From positions 1 to 64,000 of the forward strand of contig MWCV01000006.1 of assembly GCA_002070215.1 (NCBI GenBank): a stretch of DNA of 64,000 nucleotides, given 5' to 3'. Numbering within the stretch: the stretch's first letter is position 1; each line of letters starts with the position of its first letter. The translations under genes were made by a program, and so were the position numbers. Of this stretch, positions 10,260 to 21,008 are shown piece by piece. The DNA comes from Chloroflexi bacterium ADurb.Bin180. GTDB taxonomy: Bacteria > Chloroflexota > Anaerolineae > UBA2200. Under the pieces are notes generated by a model, which had not been told where the DNA came from, ran no database searches, and saw only the letters and a program-made list of their open reading frames with translations.

Positions 10260-11489
10260 CTACTTCTCGTAAGGCTTGCCTTCCGCAGCAGGCGGGGTAG
10301 TGCGGCCGATCAACCCGGCCAGAACCACCATCGTCACCAGGTAAGGCGCCATTCCCAGGAACTGGTAAGGCAGCTTCACGCCCAGGATTTGCAGCTTGAT
10401 CTGCAAAGCGTCGGTAAAACCAAAGAGCAACGAACCCAGGAACGCCCCAATCGGGTTCCAGTTACCAAAGATCATGGCCGCCAGGGAGATGAAGCCTTTG
10501 CCGCCAGTCATCACGTCCTCAAAACTGCCCACGGTCTCTAGCGAGAACCACGCGCCGGCCAGACCAGCAATCATTCCCGCCAGGATCACGTTCACGTACT
10601 GCACCTTGTAGACGTTCACTCCGACCGTATCGGCTGCTCGCGGATGTTCGCCTACGGCGCGAGTCCTCAGCCCCCACGGTGTGTAGAAGAGCATCAAGTA
10701 GACCAGCGGTACCAGAATCAGCATGAGGTACACGATTGGCTGGCTGCGGAAGAGCAGCGTACCCAGCACCGGAATCTGCGACAGGAAGGGGATCTTGATA
10801 ATGGGCAGCGTGCTGCCAACAAAGTACGCCTTGACCAGATAGGCCCGGCGTAGAAAACCTGATGCGCCTACTGCAAGGATATTGATGGCCGTGCCGCTGA
10901 TGATCTGGTCGGTCTTGAAGCGGATGCACATCAGCGCATGAATCAATGCCATCAGTCCACCGACCAGGATCGCGACCAGCACACCGATCCAGATGTTCTT
11001 AAAGTACAAGTTGGCGCCAAAGCCAAAGGCCGCCGCGGCCAGCATCATGCCTTCGATGCCAATGTTCACGATGCCGGAACGCTCGCAGAGGATCCCGGCC
11101 AGCGCACCCAGGGCGATAGGCGTGCACATGCGCAGGCTCGAGGCCAGCATGCCCACGATATCGATGCTTCCACCCTGTGCCAGCGCCGTCAACGAGGCCA
11201 GGATGGCCAGCAGGATGCCCAACACTACCGCAACGACCGATATCTTGGGACGTCTGGGATAGATTACCAGCGCCACTCCGGCCAGGAATGCGATCATCCA
11301 GCCTATGGACTTGACTGTCGACCTGGTTAGCACAGCCTTCTCACCCAGCTTTTCAAAGCCCAGGGTCGACAACCTGTCGGCAGGGATCTTGGCTGAGAAG
11401 TAGAGCGCAAAGGCGAGTCCAACCACCAGCACGAGCAGTGCCAGGACCACCGGGCGGGATAGACGGAACTTGGGCTCTTTCATGACCAT
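10260..11489 (-). CDS. Nucleoside-type ABC transporter permease 2 (NupQ/YufQ-like)
   Basis: The 409-residue membrane protein has about ten hydrophobic segments and the BPD_transp_2 signature ALGALAGILCERSGIVNIGIEGMMLA, followed by GGKGFISLAAMIFGNWNPIGAFLGSLLFG. These are hallmarks of the second permease in Bmp-dependent guanosine/purine nucleoside importers. An unusually long N-terminus (first 130 residues) adds extra membrane segments. It is the last gene of the minus-strand cluster, 5 bases after the partner permease, and ends before the rlmB terminator. Confidence 0.9.
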   Translation of the reverse strand: MVMKEPKFRLSRPVVLALLVLVVGLAFALYFSAKIPADRLSTLGFEKLGEKAVLTRSTVKSIGWMIAFLAGVALVIYPRRPKISVVAVVLGILLAILASLTALAQGGSIDIVGMLASSLRMCTPIALGALAGILCERSGIVNIGIEGMMLAAAAFGFGANLYFKNIWIGVLVAILVGGLMALIHALMCIRFKTDQIISGTAINILAVGASGFLRRAYLVKAYFVGSTLPIIKIPFLSQIPVLGTLLFRSQPIVYLMLILVPLVYLMLFYTPWGLRTRAVGEHPRAADTVGVNVYKVQYVNVILAGMIAGLAGAWFSLETVGSFEDVMTGGKGFISLAAMIFGNWNPIGAFLGSLLFGFTDALQIKLQILGVKLPYQFLGMAPYLVTMVVLAGLIGRTTPPAAEGKPYEK

Positions 11490-11494
11490 TCCTC

Positions 11495-12610
11495 CTATCT
11501 ACCCCAGCCGCGGGTAAAGACAATGTCGCGAATCTGGTCTTTGCTGCGCTTGATACGGTACAGTCCGCGGATGATCTCGTCAGCAGCGATAAAGATAATC
11601 ACCAGCCCTTGAACGATGTTGATCAAGTCGATGGAAATCCCCGCCCGAACCTGCATCAGCCCTGCTCCGTTGCGCAGGGCCGCCCACAAGAACGCTGCCG
11701 GGAAGATTCCCAAGGGATGGTTCTTGGCAATCAGAGCGATGGCAATGCTGTCAAAGCCGTATCCGGAGATAAAGGCCGCGGGAAGGGTGCGATTTGTTCC
11801 CAGCACCTCTCCCGTACCAGCCAGACCGGCCAACGCCCCGCTCAGCACCATGGCCAGGACAAAGTTGCGCGTCACACTGATGCCTGCGTAGTGGGCGGCA
11901 TCGGGGTTGGCGCCAACGGTGCGGATCTCAAAGCCGACCGTGGTTTTCCACAGCAGCCAGTAAACCACAAAGACAGCAGCAATCGCGATGAGCAAGCCTG
12001 CATGCACACGATGATCCGTCAGCAAACGCGGCAGGGTCGCCGTAGGGAGGATGTAGGGTGTACGGGGGATAGTCGACGTTCTATCTCTGAAGGGGTTCTT
12101 GACCACATAGTCCACGACCTTGACCGCGATATAGTTGAGCATGATCGCGTTGGTCACCTCGTGGGCGCCCAGCTTGGCCTTCAGGATGCCAGGAATGGCT
12201 CCCCACACCGCACCACCCAGTGCGCCGGCCAGCACTGCCAGAGGCAGATGCACCACCGCAGGAAGCCCTTTCACCGAGAAACCGACATAGACCGCGAACA
12301 GTGCTCCCATGTAGAACTGGCCTTCGGCACCGATGTTGAACAGGCCGCAACGCGATGCCAGGGCCACCGCCAGTCCGGCCAGAGTGTAGGGTGTGGCAAT
12401 AACCAGCGTCTCGGTAAAGTTGGTTACTCCGAACAGAGCGCCCTCGATCAACCCGCGATAGGCTTTCACTACGCTGGCCTTGGTGGCCCAGATGACAATA
12501 GCACCAATGGCCAGCGCGGTTACCACTGCCAGGACCGGAATGAGTTTCTCAGGGAGGCTACTCAACCACGAGGCAAAAGCCCGAGGTTCCTTCTTGGCTT
12601 CAGCGGTCAC
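11495..12610 (-). CDS. Nucleoside-type ABC transporter permease 1 (NupP/YufP-like)
   Basis: This 371-residue permease of the same family as its neighbour has the signature TLAGLAVALASRCGLFNIGAEGQFYMGA and AKLGAHEVTNAIMLNYIA, and GVSVTRNFVLAM-type sequence (GISVTRNFVLAMVLSGALAG). It would form the heterodimeric channel with the next gene. It starts with GTG at 12610, and the GTGA overlaps the stop of the ATPase gene by 4 bases, so translation is coupled. Confidence 0.92.
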   Translation of the reverse strand: MTAEAKKEPRAFASWLSSLPEKLIPVLAVVTALAIGAIVIWATKASVVKAYRGLIEGALFGVTNFTETLVIATPYTLAGLAVALASRCGLFNIGAEGQFYMGALFAVYVGFSVKGLPAVVHLPLAVLAGALGGAVWGAIPGILKAKLGAHEVTNAIMLNYIAVKVVDYVVKNPFRDRTSTIPRTPYILPTATLPRLLTDHRVHAGLLIAIAAVFVVYWLLWKTTVGFEIRTVGANPDAAHYAGISVTRNFVLAMVLSGALAGLAGTGEVLGTNRTLPAAFISGYGFDSIAIALIAKNHPLGIFPAAFLWAALRNGAGLMQVRAGISIDLINIVQGLVIIFIAADEIIRGLYRIKRSKDQIRDIVFTRGWGR

Positions 12611-14130
12611 TGTGCCGCCTCCTTCTTGATGCCAGCCATCAGCAGACCCAGTCGTTCGGGAGTCGCCTCCGCTGCCGGCAACGTATCGATGATTTGACCT
12701 TTGTAAAGTACGGCAATCCGGTCCGCCAGGGAGAGGATCTCATCCAGCTCCACCGAGATGAGGAGAATGGCCGCACCGGCGTCTCTTTGCTGAACCAGAC
12801 GCTGATGGATGAACTCGGTCGATCCGACGTCGAGACCGCGCGTCGGCTGAGCGGCGACAACCAGCTTGCTCTGGCGTGAGAACTCGCGGGCAACGATCAC
12901 CTTCTGCTGGTTGCCGCCGGAGAGATTGCCTGCCTGGGTGTATTCGCTCGGGGTCCTGATATCGTACTCGACTACCAATTTCCGCCCGTTCGCGTCGATT
13001 GCCTTGTTGTCCAGTAGGAATGCGTTTCTACAGAAGGGCTTGCGGTAATAGGTGCTCAGCACCAGGTTATCGACCAGAGGGTAGCTGAGCACAAGGCCGT
13101 GCTTCTGCCTGTCCTCGGGGACGTGAGCAACGCCCCGTTCAATGATCTCACGAGGTGAATACCTGGTGGTATCCTGGTTGAGTATCTCGATCTTGCCACC
13201 GGTAGCCGTGCGCAGCCCAGTGATGGCCTCCACCAGCTCCGTCTGCCCGTTGCCCTGCACGCCGGCGACACCCAGTATCTCGCCAGCGCGCACTTCAAGG
13301 CAAAGGCCGTCCACGCACATAAAGTGCCTCTCGTCCATTACCTGCAGATTCTCCACCCTGAGTACCACGTCACCGGTCCTGGGCGGTTTCTTCTCCACAG
13401 TGAGCAATACCTCGCGCCCGACCATCATCGAGGCCAATTCAGCCTCCGTCGCCTTGTCTGGCGTCGTGCTGCCGGCGACCTTGCCGCCGCGAAGAACGGT
13501 GATTCGATCGGCAACAGCAAAGACTTCCTTGAGCTTGTGGGTGATAAAGATGATGGACTTGCCCTGCGCTGCCAGTGCGCGCATCACCCGGAACAGCTCG
13601 TTTGCTTCTTGCGGAGTCAGGACCGCTGTGGGTTCATCCAGAATGAGGATATCGGCTCCGCGGTAGAGCGCCTTCACGATCTCCACCCGTTGCTGCACAC
13701 CCACGGGCAGGTCCTTGACCAGCGCGCCCGGGTCTATTTCCATCCCGAACTGGTGTGCGAATTCCTTGATTTTCCTGGACGCCGTCGCGCGGTCCAGGAG
13801 CCCATTGCGCGTCGTCTCCATACCGAGCATGATGTTCTCGGCCACAGTGAAAACCGGGATAAGCATAAAGTGCTGGTGAACCATGCCGATGCCCATACGA
13901 ATGGCATCTTTGGATTCGCGAATCTTGACCTCTTCCCCGTTGAGCAAGATCTGCCCCTCGTCGGGATGATAGAGGCCGTAAAGGATATTCATCAACGTGC
14001 TCTTGCCGGCGCCGTTCTCACCCAGCAGAGCGTGGATCTCGCCCTTCTCGAGCTCAAAGTCAATGTGATCGTTGGCCTGAACGCCGGGGAAGGCTTTGCT
14101 GATGCCACGGACTTCGAGGGCTAGAGTCAT
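12607..14130 (-). CDS. Nucleoside-type ABC transporter ATPase with two nucleotide-binding domains (NupO/YufO-like)
   Basis: The 507-residue protein contains two ABC domains. The first has Walker A GENGAGKSTLMNILYG, the Q-loop VHQHFML, a DLPVGVQQRVEIVKAL signature and Walker B ILILDEPTAVLTPQEA. The second has a degenerate P-loop (GVAGVQGNGQTELVEAITG), the signature NLSGGNQQKVIVAREF and QPTRGLDVGS. This is the normal design of RbsA/YufO-type importers for sugars or nucleosides. It follows the fused binding-protein gene after 177 bases that include a strong hairpin. Confidence 0.93.
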   Translation of the reverse strand: MTLALEVRGISKAFPGVQANDHIDFELEKGEIHALLGENGAGKSTLMNILYGLYHPDEGQILLNGEEVKIRESKDAIRMGIGMVHQHFMLIPVFTVAENIMLGMETTRNGLLDRATASRKIKEFAHQFGMEIDPGALVKDLPVGVQQRVEIVKALYRGADILILDEPTAVLTPQEANELFRVMRALAAQGKSIIFITHKLKEVFAVADRITVLRGGKVAGSTTPDKATEAELASMMVGREVLLTVEKKPPRTGDVVLRVENLQVMDERHFMCVDGLCLEVRAGEILGVAGVQGNGQTELVEAITGLRTATGGKIEILNQDTTRYSPREIIERGVAHVPEDRQKHGLVLSYPLVDNLVLSTYYRKPFCRNAFLLDNKAIDANGRKLVVEYDIRTPSEYTQAGNLSGGNQQKVIVAREFSRQSKLVVAAQPTRGLDVGSTEFIHQRLVQQRDAGAAILLISVELDEILSLADRIAVLYKGQIIDTLPAAEATPERLGLLMAGIKKEAAQ

Positions 14131-14247: not shown

Positions 14248-14284
14248 GATGGGTGCTGTATCGCTCAGCGGTACAGCACCCATC
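14248..14284 (-). terminator. Strong hairpin between the fused binding-protein gene and the ATPase gene
   Basis: GATGGGTGCTGTA and TACAGCACCCATC form a perfect 13-bp stem around an 11-base loop. On the minus strand it is followed by only TTTGT. Hairpins at this place in ABC operons usually stabilise the binding-protein mRNA or let only some polymerases through, giving excess binding protein over membrane parts. Full termination is possible but the short T-tract makes it less likely. Confidence 0.65.
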
Positions 14285-14307: not shown

Positions 14308-17300
14308 CTAGAGCTTGACGCCGCTCGTAACCTTGCCCGCCTTCATCTCGGCGGCGATGTGCGTGAGCTGGTCCTTCACGGCCTGAGGAATCGCGCTCTC
14401 AGTGTCGTGATACGGCGCAAGCCCTACGCCATCGTTCTTCGACTCAAACAGTACGTTGCCGCCCTGCCACTTGTCCATGGCAGCGTTCTTGATGGCGTCG
14501 TACACTGCGACATCGACTCTCTTCATGGCGCTGGACAGCAGCTTGTTCGCCCCAGCTACACTGCCCTTGCCAAAGGTCGTCAGGTATTCGTCCTGGTCTA
14601 CTCCAATGACCCAGACACCCTGCGCCGCAGCACCCATGATGCCACCAGACCCGGTCGGCCCACCGGCGCCAAAGATCACGTCAGCCTTCTCCGCAATCTG
14701 GGACAGAGCAGCTTCCTTACCTCGTGCCGGATCAGTGAAGCTGTCAATGTACACACCCAGTACCTTTGCGTTCGGGTTGACGTGCTTCACACCGTTCTGA
14801 TAGCCACGGCGGAACTTGATCACCGGCGGAATCTCCATACCAGCCACAATGCCCACTACGTTGCTCTTGGTCATCAGGCCAGCCAGACACCCCGCCAGGA
14901 AGCCAGACTGGTCTTCGGAGAACACCAGACCGGCAAAGTTCGGCTGATCCGAGCCCTCATCCACACCGGCAAACTTGATGTTCGGGTACTTCTTGGCCAT
15001 CGCGGTCGTGGCATCATTGATCATGAAGCCGACCGTGATGATCATGTCGTACTTTTCCTTGGCGAACTGCTCGATGTTCTTCTCATAGTCGGTCGGAGCC
15101 AGCGTCTCGATGAAAGCGGTCGTCAGCTCCATCTCTTCCGCGGCCTTCATCATGCCTTTGTAGGCAAACTCGTTGAACGTACCGTCATTGACCTTGCCTA
15201 CGTCCGTGACCAGACCGACCTTGATCTTCTTGGCCATGAGGGTCTCGGCATTGACGCCACTCGTCACAGTACCAGCCTTCATATCAGCAGCAATCTGCGT
15301 GAGCTTGTCCTTTACGGCCTGAGGAATCGCGCTCTCCGTGTCGTGATACGGCGCAAGCCCTACGCCATCGTTCTCCGCCTCGAACAGTACGTTGCCGCCC
15401 TGCCACAGATCGATCACGGCATTGCGAATCGCACTGTACACGGCAACGTCGACTCTCTTCATGGCGCTGGACAGCAGCTTGTTCGCCCCAGCTACACTGC
15501 CCTTGCCAAAGGTCGTCAGGTATTCGTCCTGGTCTACTCCAATGACCCAGACACCCTGCGCCGCAGCACCCATGATGCCACCAGACCCGGTCGGCCCACC
15601 GGCGCCAAAGATCACGTCAGCCTTCTCCGCAATCTGGGACAGAGCAGCTTCCTTACCTCGTGCCGGATCAGTGAAGCTGTCAATGTACACACCCAGTACC
15701 TTTGCGTTCGGGTTGACGTGCTTCACACCGTTCTGATAGCCACGGCGGAACTTGATCACCGGCGGAATCTCCATACCAGCCACAATGCCCACTACGTTGC
15801 TCTTGGTCATCAGGCCAGCCAGACACCCCGCCAGGAAGCCAGACTGGTCTTCGGAGAACACCAGACCGGCAAAGTTCGGCTGATCCGAGCCCTCATCCAC
15901 ACCGGCAAACTTGATGTTCGGGTACTTCTTGGCCATCGCGGTCGTGGCATCATTGATCATGAAGCCGACCGTGATGATCATGTCGTACCCTTCCTTGGCG
16001 AACTGCTCGATGTTCTTCTCATAGTCGGTCGGCGCGAGCGTCTCAATGAAGGCGGACTGCAGGCCGAACTCTTCGACGGCCTTCATCATGCCCTTGTAGG
16101 CAAACTCGTTGAACGTGCCATCATTGACCTTGCCTACGTCGGTAACCAGACCGACCTTGATCTTTTTCTTGGGACCCAGCCCGGCTTCCTTGATGCAGCG
16201 ATCCGCATCTTCCTGCATCTTGACTGCTGCCTCAGCAGCGCTGATGCTTCCCGCGATGACGCCCTGCTGGCCCGGTCGTGCCGGATCCCAGAAGCAGCGC
16301 AACTGCGGGGCAGCGGGCATACCACGGCCGTGCGACAATTGTGCCGCGGAGCCCTGCAGGATTGGGTCGGACTGGATGATGGGCGACTCGGCGACCTTCT
16401 TGTTCGAGGGCAGTACCTTGAACTTTTCCAGCCACATTTGCTGGGCCTTCTCACCGCACAGGAACTCGACGAGCTTCTTGACCGCCTCGAACTTGGGCGT
16501 GCCCTTCTTCACCTCATTGCTAACCATGTAGTACTTCCCGGAGGTCATCGGCGAAGGATACTTGCCGGTTTCCTTGATCACCGGCATAGCAGCGGTGCCA
16601 TAGTTCAGCCCCGCCTCGGTGTAGCCACCGAGCGACCAGTCGCCATTGATCAAGAACGCGGCTTTGCCTTCCTTGAACAGTGTGTCGGCGGTGTTATAGT
16701 CGCAGCCGGGCGGCACGATTTTGTGCTTGTTGCTCAGGTCGGCCATGAACTGCAGTGCTTTGACCATCTCGGGGGTGTTCAGGGTCGGCATGTCCGTAGC
16801 GTCATCCAGCGCCCAGCCACCGAAACCGCCCAGGAACGGCGCCAGCCAGAAGGGCTCCTGAGTGTTGTAGACCAGGCCCCAGGTGCCGGCCGCTTCGTTG
16901 GTCTGAGCCTTGGCCGTAGCGATCAGCTCGTCCCAGTCCGCCGGCACTTTGGTAACCAGGTTCTTGTTGTAGAGCAGCATCAGGTGGTTGCCCGATGAAT
17001 CGGGGACGCCCCACAGGGTGCCAGCCACCACGCCGCCAGCCACTGCGCCCGGCAGGAGCGTGTCCAGGTAAGCCTGGTCCAACAGATCCTTGATGGGCAT
17101 GACAATGCCCATGGTGCTGAATGGGCCGGCAAAATCGTTGGGGCACCGAACTACTTCGGGGGCCTGGCCAGCCAGAGAGGCGGTCTGGAACTGCGTGCGC
17201 AGCTCCTCGTTCCCGTAGTGGGTCATCTCCACTAGGATGCCGGGGTTGGCGGCCATGAACTCGTTCAGCAGGGGGAGTAGAGCGCCGCTATCGCGGTCCT

Positions 17301-17484
17301 CCGCTTCCTGCTCCCACAGCGTGATGGTTACCTTGTCCGCCGGCTTGGGCGTGGCGGTAGGTGCTGTGGGGGGCTTGACTGTCGGCGGGGGTACTGCCGT
17401 CGGTGTCGCCGTGGGTTTGCACGACGTCACCAGCATGCCCAGCACGACGGCCAGCACAACTAGGGTCGAAAACCATTTACGCAT
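14308..17484 (-). CDS. Triple-domain lipoprotein: MalE-type binding domain fused to two Bmp (nucleoside-type) binding domains
   Basis: One open frame of 1058 residues. The start ATG at 17484 has AAGGAGG upstream and gives a lipoprotein signal (VVLGMLVTSC, lipid cysteine about 22) and a Thr/Pro-rich linker to residue 55. Residues about 55-430 are a family-1 extracellular solute-binding domain (VTITLWEQEAEDRD, EAAGTWGLVYNTQEPF, FKEGKAAFLINGDWSLGG). At about 439, with no new signal and almost no linker, a Bmp/PnrA-type domain begins (KVGLVTDVGKVNDGTFNEFA) and runs to about 748. A second copy follows at about 750-1058. Bmp domains bind purine nucleosides in known members; the MalE-like ligand is probably a carbohydrate. 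The gene lies between MalFG-type permeases and a nucleoside-type ABC transporter, so it joins the receptors of both. Separate binding proteins are the norm; a mis-assembly is the main alternative. Confidence 0.88.
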   Translation of the reverse strand: MRKWFSTLVVLAVVLGMLVTSCKPTATPTAVPPPTVKPPTAPTATPKPADKVTITLWEQEAEDRDSGALLPLLNEFMAANPGILVEMTHYGNEELRTQFQTASLAGQAPEVVRCPNDFAGPFSTMGIVMPIKDLLDQAYLDTLLPGAVAGGVVAGTLWGVPDSSGNHLMLLYNKNLVTKVPADWDELIATAKAQTNEAAGTWGLVYNTQEPFWLAPFLGGFGGWALDDATDMPTLNTPEMVKALQFMADLSNKHKIVPPGCDYNTADTLFKEGKAAFLINGDWSLGGYTEAGLNYGTAAMPVIKETGKYPSPMTSGKYYMVSNEVKKGTPKFEAVKKLVEFLCGEKAQQMWLEKFKVLPSNKKVAESPIIQSDPILQGSAAQLSHGRGMPAAPQLRCFWDPARPGQQGVIAGSISAAEAAVKMQEDADRCIKEAGLGPKKKIKVGLVTDVGKVNDGTFNEFAYKGMMKAVEEFGLQSAFIETLAPTDYEKNIEQFAKEGYDMIITVGFMINDATTAMAKKYPNIKFAGVDEGSDQPNFAGLVFSEDQSGFLAGCLAGLMTKSNVVGIVAGMEIPPVIKFRRGYQNGVKHVNPNAKVLGVYIDSFTDPARGKEAALSQIAEKADVIFGAGGPTGSGGIMGAAAQGVWVIGVDQDEYLTTFGKGSVAGANKLLSSAMKRVDVAVYSAIRNAVIDLWQGGNVLFEAENDGVGLAPYHDTESAIPQAVKDKLTQIAADMKAGTVTSGVNAETLMAKKIKVGLVTDVGKVNDGTFNEFAYKGMMKAAEEMELTTAFIETLAPTDYEKNIEQFAKEKYDMIITVGFMINDATTAMAKKYPNIKFAGVDEGSDQPNFAGLVFSEDQSGFLAGCLAGLMTKSNVVGIVAGMEIPPVIKFRRGYQNGVKHVNPNAKVLGVYIDSFTDPARGKEAALSQIAEKADVIFGAGGPTGSGGIMGAAAQGVWVIGVDQDEYLTTFGKGSVAGANKLLSSAMKRVDVAVYDAIKNAAMDKWQGGNVLFESKNDGVGLAPYHDTESAIPQAVKDQLTHIAAEMKAGKVTSGVKL
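14513..15052 (-). repeat. 540-bp identical repeat, copy in the third (C-terminal) domain
   Basis: By eye I find no mismatch between this stretch and 15449-15988 (offset 936 bases = 312 codons). Outside the block the two Bmp domains differ at many positions, including amino acid changes (for example VEEFGLQ against AEEMELT). Confidence 0.85.
15449..15988 (-). repeat. 540-bp identical repeat, copy in the second (middle) domain
   Basis: Direct repeat of 14513-15052 in the same orientation and reading frame. The abrupt change from identity to clear divergence at both ends suggests gene conversion after an older duplication. Confidence 0.85.
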
Positions 17485-17608: not shown

Positions 17609-17637
17609 AGTATAGGCCAGTTGCCGAGAGGTGTCAA
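17609..17637 (-). promoter_or_regulatory. Consensus promoter for the fused binding-protein gene
   Basis: TTGACA (17637-17632), 17 bases, TATACT (17614-17609) on the minus strand, starting 5 bases after the malG-type stop codon. Expected start near 17602 gives a leader of about 118 bases. The receptor gene can thus be transcribed apart from the MalFG genes. Confidence 0.75.
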
Positions 17638-17641
17638 CTTG

Positions 17642-18523
17642 CTAGCCTTTGACACCGCCCAGCGTGAGCCCGGACACCAGCCACTTGGATGAATAGAGAA
17701 ACAGAGCCATTGACGGTACAGCGAGCAGCATCGAGGCAGCCGCGAATCGGCCGGCCGCCAGGGTGTATTGCCCGGCATAGGTAAAAATACCCAGAGGCCA
17801 GGTGTACATGGCCGCCTTCTGCAAGACCACCCTCGCCACCAGGTACTCGCTCCAACCACTGGTAAAGTTGAACAGGAAGGCCACGGCGAGCGAGGGGGTT
17901 GACAACGGCAGAATCACCCGGTAGAAGGCCCCTAGCCGCGATGTGCCATCGATCATGGCCGCCTCCTCGAGATCCGGTGGAATCGTGTCAAAGTACCCCT
18001 TGAGGATCCAGATGGTGAACGGCACAGACGTGACCGAGTAGGCGATGATCAGACCCAGATAAGTGTTGATCAGCTTGAGGCGCGTGAGCATCATGTAGAG
18101 TGGTAACAGCAGCATACCCGCCGGGATCATCTGGGTGGTTAGCAGGAAGATCAACCCGGGTGAGCGTCCCGGGAACTTGAACCGCGAGAAGGCGTATGCC
18201 GCCGACGACGCCAGGATGACGCCAATACACGCCGTGGTCAGGGTGATCAGCAGGCTGTTCCACAGCCACAGGAAGAAATCGGACTTGCGCTTGGTGGCCG
18301 GATCACCAAACAGCACCTGGCGGTAGCTGTTGAGCGTAGCGTTCTTGGGGATAATGCTCAAGTCGGTCGACAGCAGTTTGTCACCCGGTCGAATTGAGAT
18401 GGTAAAGATGCGCAGGATCGGGTAGATGGCCACGATGCAGGCGGCGATAAGTATGACATGGATCAGCAGCCGCTTGAATCCGCTGTCGCCGCGCGTGCGA
18501 TGGAAGAAGGTGTGCCAGTCCAT
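17642..18523 (-). CDS. MalG-type ABC transporter permease
   Basis: The 293-residue inner-membrane protein has six predicted membrane segments and the binding-protein-dependent EAA loop EEAAMIDGTSRLGAFYRVILPLSTPSLA, which contacts the ATPase. The family pairs with MalF-type proteins in carbohydrate importers. A Shine-Dalgarno AAAGGAG lies before the ATG at 18523. It follows the MalF-type gene by 28 bases. No MalK-type ATPase is in this cluster; the one at 35.9-37.0 kb is the only candidate in the window. Confidence 0.94.
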   Translation of the reverse strand: MDWHTFFHRTRGDSGFKRLLIHVILIAACIVAIYPILRIFTISIRPGDKLLSTDLSIIPKNATLNSYRQVLFGDPATKRKSDFFLWLWNSLLITLTTACIGVILASSAAYAFSRFKFPGRSPGLIFLLTTQMIPAGMLLLPLYMMLTRLKLINTYLGLIIAYSVTSVPFTIWILKGYFDTIPPDLEEAAMIDGTSRLGAFYRVILPLSTPSLAVAFLFNFTSGWSEYLVARVVLQKAAMYTWPLGIFTYAGQYTLAAGRFAAASMLLAVPSMALFLYSSKWLVSGLTLGGVKG

Positions 18524-18551: not shown

Positions 18552-19745
18552 TTACTCGTAGGCTGCCTTCAGGCCGCCTGAAGCCCTGACGTAGATGAGA
18601 CTGAACAGGAACAGGAAAGCAAAGATCACCAGCGCGAACGCGGCGGCAAAGCCATAGCGGTAAAAGTCAAAGGCCGCCTTGTACAGCGACGAAACCAGGA
18701 TGTCCGTCTTTTCCTGCGGGTTGCCATTCGTAATCAGGAAGATCACGTTCAAGGCGTTGAACGTCCACACAGCGCCCAGGATAATGGACGGGGTCGTTAC
18801 CGGTCTGAGGAGCGGAATCGTGATGTGGCGGAACTGCTGCCAGCCAGACGCACCATCGATCTCGGCGGCCTCATAGTACTCGGAGGAGATGCTCTGCAAC
18901 CCACCCAGCAGGATCACCATCATGAACGGAATGCCCAGCCAGACATTGGAGATGACCACGGCAACGAACGCCCAGAACCCATCGGTGAGCCACGGAATGG
19001 GTTTGAGCCCGATGGTGCGCAGGATCACGTTGGGAAATCCATACTGAAAGTTGAATTCGTTGCGCAGCGCCATACAGGCAATGGTCTGCGGGATGGCCCA
19101 CGGAAACACGAGGAGCGTCCGGTAGATTCCTCTAAAGCGCATCTTGCGGTTCAGCAGCAACGCCAGTCCCATGCCACCCGCCACGTGAAAGACGACATTG
19201 ATGACCGTCCAGGCGATGCTCCGCCCCAGGACCTGCCAAAACGTCGCGTCGTGGGCCACCACACCGGTAAAGACGGCCCTAAAGTTGTTCAAGCCGTTTT
19301 GCAAGCTAAAGGTATAGGTCCTGATGGTGGTCATGGCCATGTTCGTGAACGCCAGATAGACGTTGTAGGCAAAGGGGTAGATCACCAGCCCGCTGATGCC
19401 GATAAAAGCCGGGGCCAGCAAGAGATAGGCGATGCCAAGCCGTGATAACCGTTCACGAGTGGTCAGCCAGTAAAAGCCTACGTCGGCCAGCAGCATGGCC
19501 ACACCGTAGATCACCTTTGTGGATTGCACAATGGCCGGCGACGGCCAGATTCTGCGAACAAAGACATAGCCCAGAGCTACTGTAACGACCAGAGCAAGCA
19601 GTCCGAGCAGAAGGTTCTTGGGGCGACGGTGAAAGAGGGTGTAGAGCGTGATCTCGACCAGTGCAAGTACGGCGATGATGAGCAACAGAAAGCGCACAAC
19701 GGTGACGAATGAGCTGCTCATCATCTGCGGAGTCAGACTAATCAT
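18552..19745 (-). CDS. MalF-type ABC transporter permease with extended N-terminus
   Basis: The 397-residue protein carries the EAA loop (YEAAEIDGASGWQQFRHITIPLLRP) and the usual six-segment permease core from about residue 100 (LGIAYLLLAPAFIGISGLVIYPF). The first 100 residues add about three membrane segments before the core, making it longer than typical sugar permeases of about 300 residues, though E. coli MalF also has extra N-terminal segments. The ATG at 19745 has an excellent AAAGGAGGT site. It is the first gene of the minus-strand transport locus. Confidence 0.93.
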   Translation of the reverse strand: MISLTPQMMSSSFVTVVRFLLLIIAVLALVEITLYTLFHRRPKNLLLGLLALVVTVALGYVFVRRIWPSPAIVQSTKVIYGVAMLLADVGFYWLTTRERLSRLGIAYLLLAPAFIGISGLVIYPFAYNVYLAFTNMAMTTIRTYTFSLQNGLNNFRAVFTGVVAHDATFWQVLGRSIAWTVINVVFHVAGGMGLALLLNRKMRFRGIYRTLLVFPWAIPQTIACMALRNEFNFQYGFPNVILRTIGLKPIPWLTDGFWAFVAVVISNVWLGIPFMMVILLGGLQSISSEYYEAAEIDGASGWQQFRHITIPLLRPVTTPSIILGAVWTFNALNVIFLITNGNPQEKTDILVSSLYKAAFDFYRYGFAAAFALVIFAFLFLFSLIYVRASGGLKAAYE

Positions 19746-20304: not shown

Positions 20305-20333
20305 CCGTGCATCTTGGGCAGAGGAGCCGGGTC

Positions 20334-21008
20334 ATGGCTAAACCCACGTCGAGCGGTCCGTCTGGTCACCCTATCCTCGTCATTGGTGTAGCCGGAGGAA
20401 CCGCGTCAGGCAAGTCCACCGTTGTTCAGGCAATCCTCGACCGCGTCGGCCGGGAGCGCATTGCCCACATCCAGCACGATTCTTACTACCGCGACCTGAG
20501 CCACCTGCCCCTGGAAGAGCGCCGAGCATTCAACTTTGACCATCCCAATTCCCTCGACACGCCGCTCTTGGTGCAGCACCTTCGCCGCCTGCGGCACGGA
20601 CACCCAATCGAAGTTCCCACCTATGACTTTTCGACCTACTGCCGTCTCCCGGCCACGCGACGGATAGAGCCGCGACCCGTGGTTATTCTCGATGGCATCC
20701 TCATCCTCGCCGAACCCGAACTGCGCGAGTTGATCGACGTCAAGCTCTATGTCGATACAGACGCCGACTTGCGCCTGATCCGACGTATGACCCGCGACGT
20801 CGCCGAACGGGGGCGCACCGTCGAGTCGGTGATCAACCAGTACCTTTCTACAGTGCGTCCGATGCACCTCGAGTTCGTGGAGCCTTCCAAGCGCTACGCT
20901 GATGTCATCATTCCACAAGGCGGCCAGAACGTAGCCGCGTTGGAGCTGGTGACGGCACGCATACTGTCGCTGCTGGATCAGGCGGAGCTACCTGCTCGTG
21001 GCTCCTGA
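20334..21008 (+). CDS. udk: Uridine kinase
   Basis: It phosphorylates uridine and cytidine to their monophosphates in pyrimidine salvage. The 224-residue product has the P-loop GVAGGTASGKSTVV, the DSYYRDLSHLPLEER region, NFDHPNSLDTPLL, PTYDFSTYCR and the RRMTRDVAERGRTVESVINQYL motif, as in E. coli Udk. The ATG at 20334 is preceded by GAGGAG; an earlier in-frame GTG at 20307 overlaps the promoter region. It fits with the nucleoside-type importer encoded just before. Confidence 0.95.
   Translation: MAKPTSSGPSGHPILVIGVAGGTASGKSTVVQAILDRVGRERIAHIQHDSYYRDLSHLPLEERRAFNFDHPNSLDTPLLVQHLRRLRHGHPIEVPTYDFSTYCRLPATRRIEPRPVVILDGILILAEPELRELIDVKLYVDTDADLRLIRRMTRDVAERGRTVESVINQYLSTVRPMHLEFVEPSKRYADVIIPQGGQNVAALELVTARILSLLDQAELPARGS

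Follow-up and report, generated by a model that had tools for sequence, protein, structure and literature searches.

ABC importers are usually described as pairing one kind of receptor with one kind of importer, and tandem receptor domains as serving a single importer. Like the protein analysed here, GlnPQ (PMC8025302) and OpuA (PMC11065425) carry at least two substrate-binding domains per assembly. In GlnPQ, these domains have different specificities, are connected by a short linker, and are both linked to the transmembrane domain of the one importer that they feed. They bind ligand independently, as the isolated domains do (PMC8025302). Two families of single receptors are also relevant: the MalE-type maltodextrin-binding proteins (for example the Bdellovibrio MalE domain, 6ffl) and the PnrA/Bmp nucleoside-binding lipoproteins (7x0r, Lbp; 6yab; 2fqw; BmpD).

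We analysed a window of 64,000 nucleotides from Chloroflexi bacterium ADurb.Bin180 (Anaerolineae; genome G000), in which a gene read on the minus strand encodes a lipoprotein that joins both of these families in one chain (Table 1). An AAGGAGG-type ribosome site precedes the start codon. As in bacterial lipoproteins, the protein begins with a short hydrophobic signal and a lipobox read from the sequence (residues 1-22, LVTS-C22), after which a Pro/Thr-rich tether extends to about residue 47. The MalE-type domain (about 48-437), Bmp1 (441-750) and Bmp2 (752-1058) follow, and each of the two linkers that join them is about 5-10 residues long. The profile matches lie far above chance: Pfam SBP_bac_8 covers the N-terminal 400 or so residues (1.3e-33; 117.5 bits, cutoff 27), and Pfam Bmp matches two stretches (3.5e-112 jointly; 195.5 and 193.6 bits, cutoff 24.1). 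Because the NCBIfam MalE equivalog scores 108 bits, below its cutoff of 291, we refer to domain 1 as a MalE-like receptor and do not take its identity as MalE to be established. It shares its fold with 6ffl. Domains 2 and 3 resemble PnrA/Bmp lipoproteins by Pfam, sequence and fold, and their TD-G-VNDG-FN, GG-TG-G, IGVD-D and SAMKRVD stretches appear conserved and align with 7x0r.

The comparison with the described systems brings out several differences. Whereas the GlnPQ domains are covalently joined to a transmembrane domain, the window protein has a lipid anchor only, with no permease domain detected in its chain by Pfam, and its domains come from two receptor families with different permease types. 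Unlike 6ffl-type MalE proteins, it bears Bmp domains at the MalE C-terminus; unlike PnrA/Bmp lipoproteins, its Bmp domains lack their own signal peptide and lipid anchor and sit behind another receptor. A preliminary description of this locus had proposed a lipid-anchored MalE-Bmp-Bmp chain with almost no linker, with MalF/MalG-type permeases upstream and a nucleoside-type ATPase and its permeases downstream. Domain calls, anchor, short junctions and, by Pfam, genomic position all hold, and neither a stop codon nor a gap separates the domains in the window.

Table 1. Features of the receptor locus in the window.
Feature	Position	Strand	Basis and remarks
Permease Q	10260..11489	minus	Pfam BPD_transp_2
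Permease P	11495..12610	minus	Pfam BPD_transp_2
Double-domain ATPase, nucleoside-type importer	12607..14130	minus	Two Pfam ABC_tran; downstream of receptor
Strong hairpin	14248..14284	minus	13 perfect pairs; receptor-ATPase gap; sequence and folding
Fused receptor lipoprotein	14308..17484	minus	1058 aa, single uninterrupted frame; ATG at 17484, stop at 14308
Bmp/PnrA domain 2	14308..15231	minus	Tandem copy of domain 1, 94% aa identity
540-nt identical stretch, Bmp2 copy	14513..15052	minus	Identical to 15449-15988
Bmp/PnrA domain 1	15235..16164	minus	Pfam; closest solved structure 7x0r, Lbp with guanosine
540-nt identical stretch, Bmp1 copy	15449..15988	minus	Identical to 14513-15052
MalE-type (SBP_bac_8) domain	16174..17334	minus	Pfam; closest solved structure 6ffl
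Promoter-like site TTGACA-17-TATACT	17609..17637	minus	MalG-receptor gap; 11/12 consensus matches
MalG-type permease	17642..18523	minus	Pfam BPD_transp_1; best NCBIfam match MalG, below cutoff
MalF-type permease, sugar-type importer	18552..19745	minus	Pfam BPD_transp_1; best NCBIfam match MalF, below cutoff
Uridine kinase gene	20307..21008	plus	NCBIfam uridine kinase above cutoff; divergent neighbour, outside fusion

The genes downstream of the receptor form the set associated with Bmp receptors, a double ATPase and two BPD_transp_2 permeases; in NCBIfam, the ATPase scores best, though below cutoff, against double ATPases from importers of the B6 and sugar types. Elsewhere, the genome encodes ATPases of the MalK type with TOBE_2 domains. 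The assembly (95% complete) has no Bmp matches besides the two fused domains, and the nucleoside importer is therefore left with no other visible Bmp receptor there. The uridine kinase beside the operon, the MalK-type ATPases and the sole occurrence of Bmp in this protein speak for a shared receptor. The promoter-like site has comparable -35/-10 elements, judged by eye, in the MalG-receptor gap of three related loci (L033, L115 and L118). The hairpin in the receptor-ATPase gap recurs in L033 (G001) and, with a different sequence, in L115 and L118 (G002 and G005). The receptor gene thus seems to be expressed as a unit of its own, which would suit a receptor required in larger amounts than its permeases, and its own promoter-like site and terminal hairpin suggest that it is made in such excess.

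MalE-Bmp proteins are encoded in four other genomes: G001 from the same genus, G002 and G005 from the same family, and G006 from another family of the same order. The five proteins align without a gap across the MalE-Bmp junction, and the S-C of the lipobox is retained in all four relatives. The genus-level relative has the same operon and a 744-aa protein; those of G002, G005 and G006 are about 770 aa each. MalF and MalG are kept beside MalE in four of the five genomes (in G001, G002 and G005, MalF orthologues, upstream of the fusion, are 76-78% identical and MalG orthologues 85-91%). In G006, the fusion gene stands alone among unrelated genes (L120:8612-10939), with no importer genes, those of the nucleoside type included, found within about 9 kb and MalF/MalG-like genes on a different contig; the operon layout is therefore not strictly conserved. 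At L242:10032-13212 of the same genome, two proteins, each combining a DapA/HpaI-type aldolase with a formaldehyde-activating-enzyme (Fae) domain, lie beside MalF/MalG-like genes. At the threshold used, two further members of the family, G003 and G004, yielded no close relative of MalE; in G004, Bmp is instead fused to an amino-acid-type receptor (SBP_bac_3). In several other families, MalE relatives without a fusion (about 54-59% identity) occupy MalE-MalF-MalG operons. A MalE-MalE tandem receptor of 845 aa is encoded downstream of MalF and MalG in G022 (L229:8218-10752). A search of annotated plasmids returned no record covering the fusion. Related genomes thus carry fused rather than separate genes. 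The three-domain order of the preliminary description does not extend to them, however: all four relatives have a single Bmp, and the conserved unit is MalE-Bmp.

Both halves of the protein are under purifying selection. Compared at synonymous distances near 1, dN/dS is 0.19 for MalE and 0.09 for Bmp between the window genome and G001, and 0.046 and 0.020, respectively, between G002 and G005. In the former pair, MalE changes faster than Bmp (dN 0.17 and 0.06). An AlphaFold2 model of the G001 protein (mean pLDDT 91.1, pTM 0.75) displays complete receptor folds for both MalE and Bmp, for which Foldseek returned 6ffl (MalE domain with maltotriose) and 7x0r (Bmp-type receptor with guanosine). VIA-align superposed residues 50-431 of the model on 6ffl (Z 47.3, 378 residues aligned), and the MalE domain is 38-39% identical to that structure.

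The two halves have different histories. In the MalE tree, the four halves from the window's family group together (91/81), and the data neither establish nor reject a single clade of all five with G006 included (p 0.45). The MalE halves seem to be orthologues. The Bmp halves split into two distant subfamilies, G000/G001 and G002/G005/G006, and a single origin for all five is rejected (log-likelihood difference 316, AU p about 1e-32). The tree of the downstream ATPase agrees, placing G000/G001 with the stand-alone Bmp loci L037-L039 and G002/G005 with L177. Likewise, the G002 and G006 proteins are 92% identical in Bmp and just 62% in MalE. Rejection of one Bmp clade implies that either the module of Bmp and ATPase was replaced by that of another subfamily behind a fixed junction or fusion occurred twice at the same residue, and replacement would be the more economical path. 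Proteins in which a phosphonate-type receptor precedes Bmp have a constant 21-residue interdomain gap in seven of seven full-length examples, and one clade of their Bmp halves is also rejected (p about 1e-6). This is the same pattern as in MalE-Bmp.

The second Bmp is a recent tandem duplication, seen in the window genome only. Bmp1 and Bmp2 are sisters in the Bmp tree, with the G001 Bmp outside, and would have duplicated after the exchange. Their 540-nt core is 100% identical and its flanks differ by 12% and 19%; at the mean flank divergence of 15%, independent drift has essentially no chance of leaving 540 positions without a difference. The identical core would be best explained by recent gene conversion following the duplication. 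The count of two may reflect an assembly copy-number error, and the protein may contain one, two or more copies.

Bmp fusions extend well beyond MalE. The preliminary description took the combination of unrelated receptors to be undescribed, and in the open-access literature we found no fused receptors of different ABC classes. MalE-Bmp is no one-off, however, and we reject it as a unique design: in the class, Bmp is fused, judged by Pfam, to SBP_bac_8 and Phosphonate-bd (each in both orders), SBP_bac_5, SBP_bac_3 and Peripla_BP_6, besides occurring in Bmp-Bmp, triple Bmp and Bmp-permease arrangements. Bmp frames over 560 aa are present in at least roughly 40 of 113 genomes of the class (counted by eye), versus two seen in 30 genomes with Bmp matches from other classes of the phylum. 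The recurrent welding of Bmp onto the receptors of other importers in this class is apparently undescribed. Separately, L181:6199-9213 encodes a 1005-aa frame with Bmp at residues 697-997 and no Pfam match in the preceding ~690 residues, and a Bmp frame at L184:7443-9356, at the end of its contig, continues as a Fasciclin domain.

At three loci (L117, L177 and L192), the genes for both importers cluster with that of a fused receptor. At L117:7716-15579 (G004, in the window's family), SBP_bac_3-Bmp is followed first by a nucleoside-type ATPase with two permeases and next by a BPD_transp_1 permease with a second ATPase; an amino-acid-type permease and ATPase there join the nucleoside-type ATPase and permeases. 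Bmp is paired with the phosphonate type at L177 and L192, and at L177:7262-17001 a Bmp-Bmp-Phosphonate-bd receptor (1061 aa) precedes an ATPase, a BPD_transp_1 permease protein, a double ATPase and, last, two permeases of the BPD_transp_2 kind. L190 has phosphonate-side genes with a nucleoside-type ATPase, and the Bmp-LivJ type at L170 adjoins two BPD_transp_2 permeases. At L041:3138-12110 and L057:7986-16922, a Bmp-SBP_bac_5 receptor, whose second part is of the peptide type, stands ahead of Opp-type permeases, ATPases and a hydantoinase-like gene, with no nucleoside permeases beside the receptor. A fused Bmp thus need not serve an adjacent importer.

Taken together, we consider it probable that the window encodes a genuine multi-receptor lipoprotein, in which a shared tether serves domains that each feed their own importer. 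One lipid anchor would carry the sugar-binding MalE-type domain, with the nucleoside-binding Bmp domains hanging from its C-terminus, and each domain would most likely bind its own ligand independently. MalE would dock on MalF/MalG, with a MalK-type ATPase from another locus as the power source, and Bmp on the importer formed by the downstream ATPase with permeases P and Q. The fusion would set the stoichiometry of both receptors and hold both at the membrane. The identity of the ligands and any benefit of tethering we infer rather than show.

A serious rival, to which we give a rather low probability, is that the fusion is neutral. With intergenic DNA and the signal peptide lost, the end of an upstream receptor gene may have merged with the beginning of bmp, leaving a tether without a role and a chain that performs like two separate receptors. 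The fusion is not needed, given how widely MalE orthologues occur unfused in MalE-MalF-MalG operons and Bmp genes on their own; the GlnPQ domains, for their part, bind alike in tandem and in isolation (PMC8025302). Bmp-Bmp, MalE-MalE and Bmp-permease tandems abound in the class, as if tolerated. Yet mere compaction sits uneasily with a junction retained in five genomes despite differing Bmp modules, and with long Bmp frames being common in this class and rare in the other sampled classes of the phylum.

Physical coupling is improbable. Here the shared tether would unite the two importers, so that a sugar and a nucleoside, for instance as parts of one polymer or of a nucleotide sugar, enter jointly. 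The placement of the receptor gene between both permease sets is consistent with this idea, as is the recurrence of operons encoding both importers with other receptor pairs; the lack of adjacent permeases in G006 argues against it. The partner receptor also varies widely between families, and no single substrate pair can therefore explain the fusions. Since tandem domains act independently in GlnPQ, we take independent action as the default and coupling as the claim that needs proof.

We regard it as very improbable that one half is a degenerate passenger, for instance MalE as no more than a spacer and anchor that holds Bmp, or Bmp as an appendage of a sugar receptor. The faster evolution of MalE would fit such decay, as would the missing matching permease near one half in some relatives. 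Both halves, however, have dN/dS far below 1 and predicted complete folds, and MalF and MalG have stayed with MalE in all but one of the genomes. Finally, an assembly artefact of this metagenome-derived genome can practically be discounted: short-read copy number can err across the identical 540 bases, but MalE-Bmp with the same junction in four other genomes is no chimera of this assembly, and the unique segment between the identical stretches, both of whose ends enter the repeat, would itself require a Bmp-Bmp junction.

The preferred reading, a multi-receptor lipoprotein whose domains each feed their own importer, may have a wider counterpart. We put forward tentatively, as a possible if doubtful generalization, that Bmp is an exchangeable module in this class, repeatedly attached to receptors of other ABC classes, and that the resulting lipoproteins serve and functionally link two importers. 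The mixing of receptor families would surprise specialists. Exchange of Bmp behind a fixed junction, if true, would show how multi-receptor proteins evolve, and the presence of two unrelated receptor families on one anchor makes it a directly testable matter whether one receptor chain can serve several importers jointly or coordinate them.
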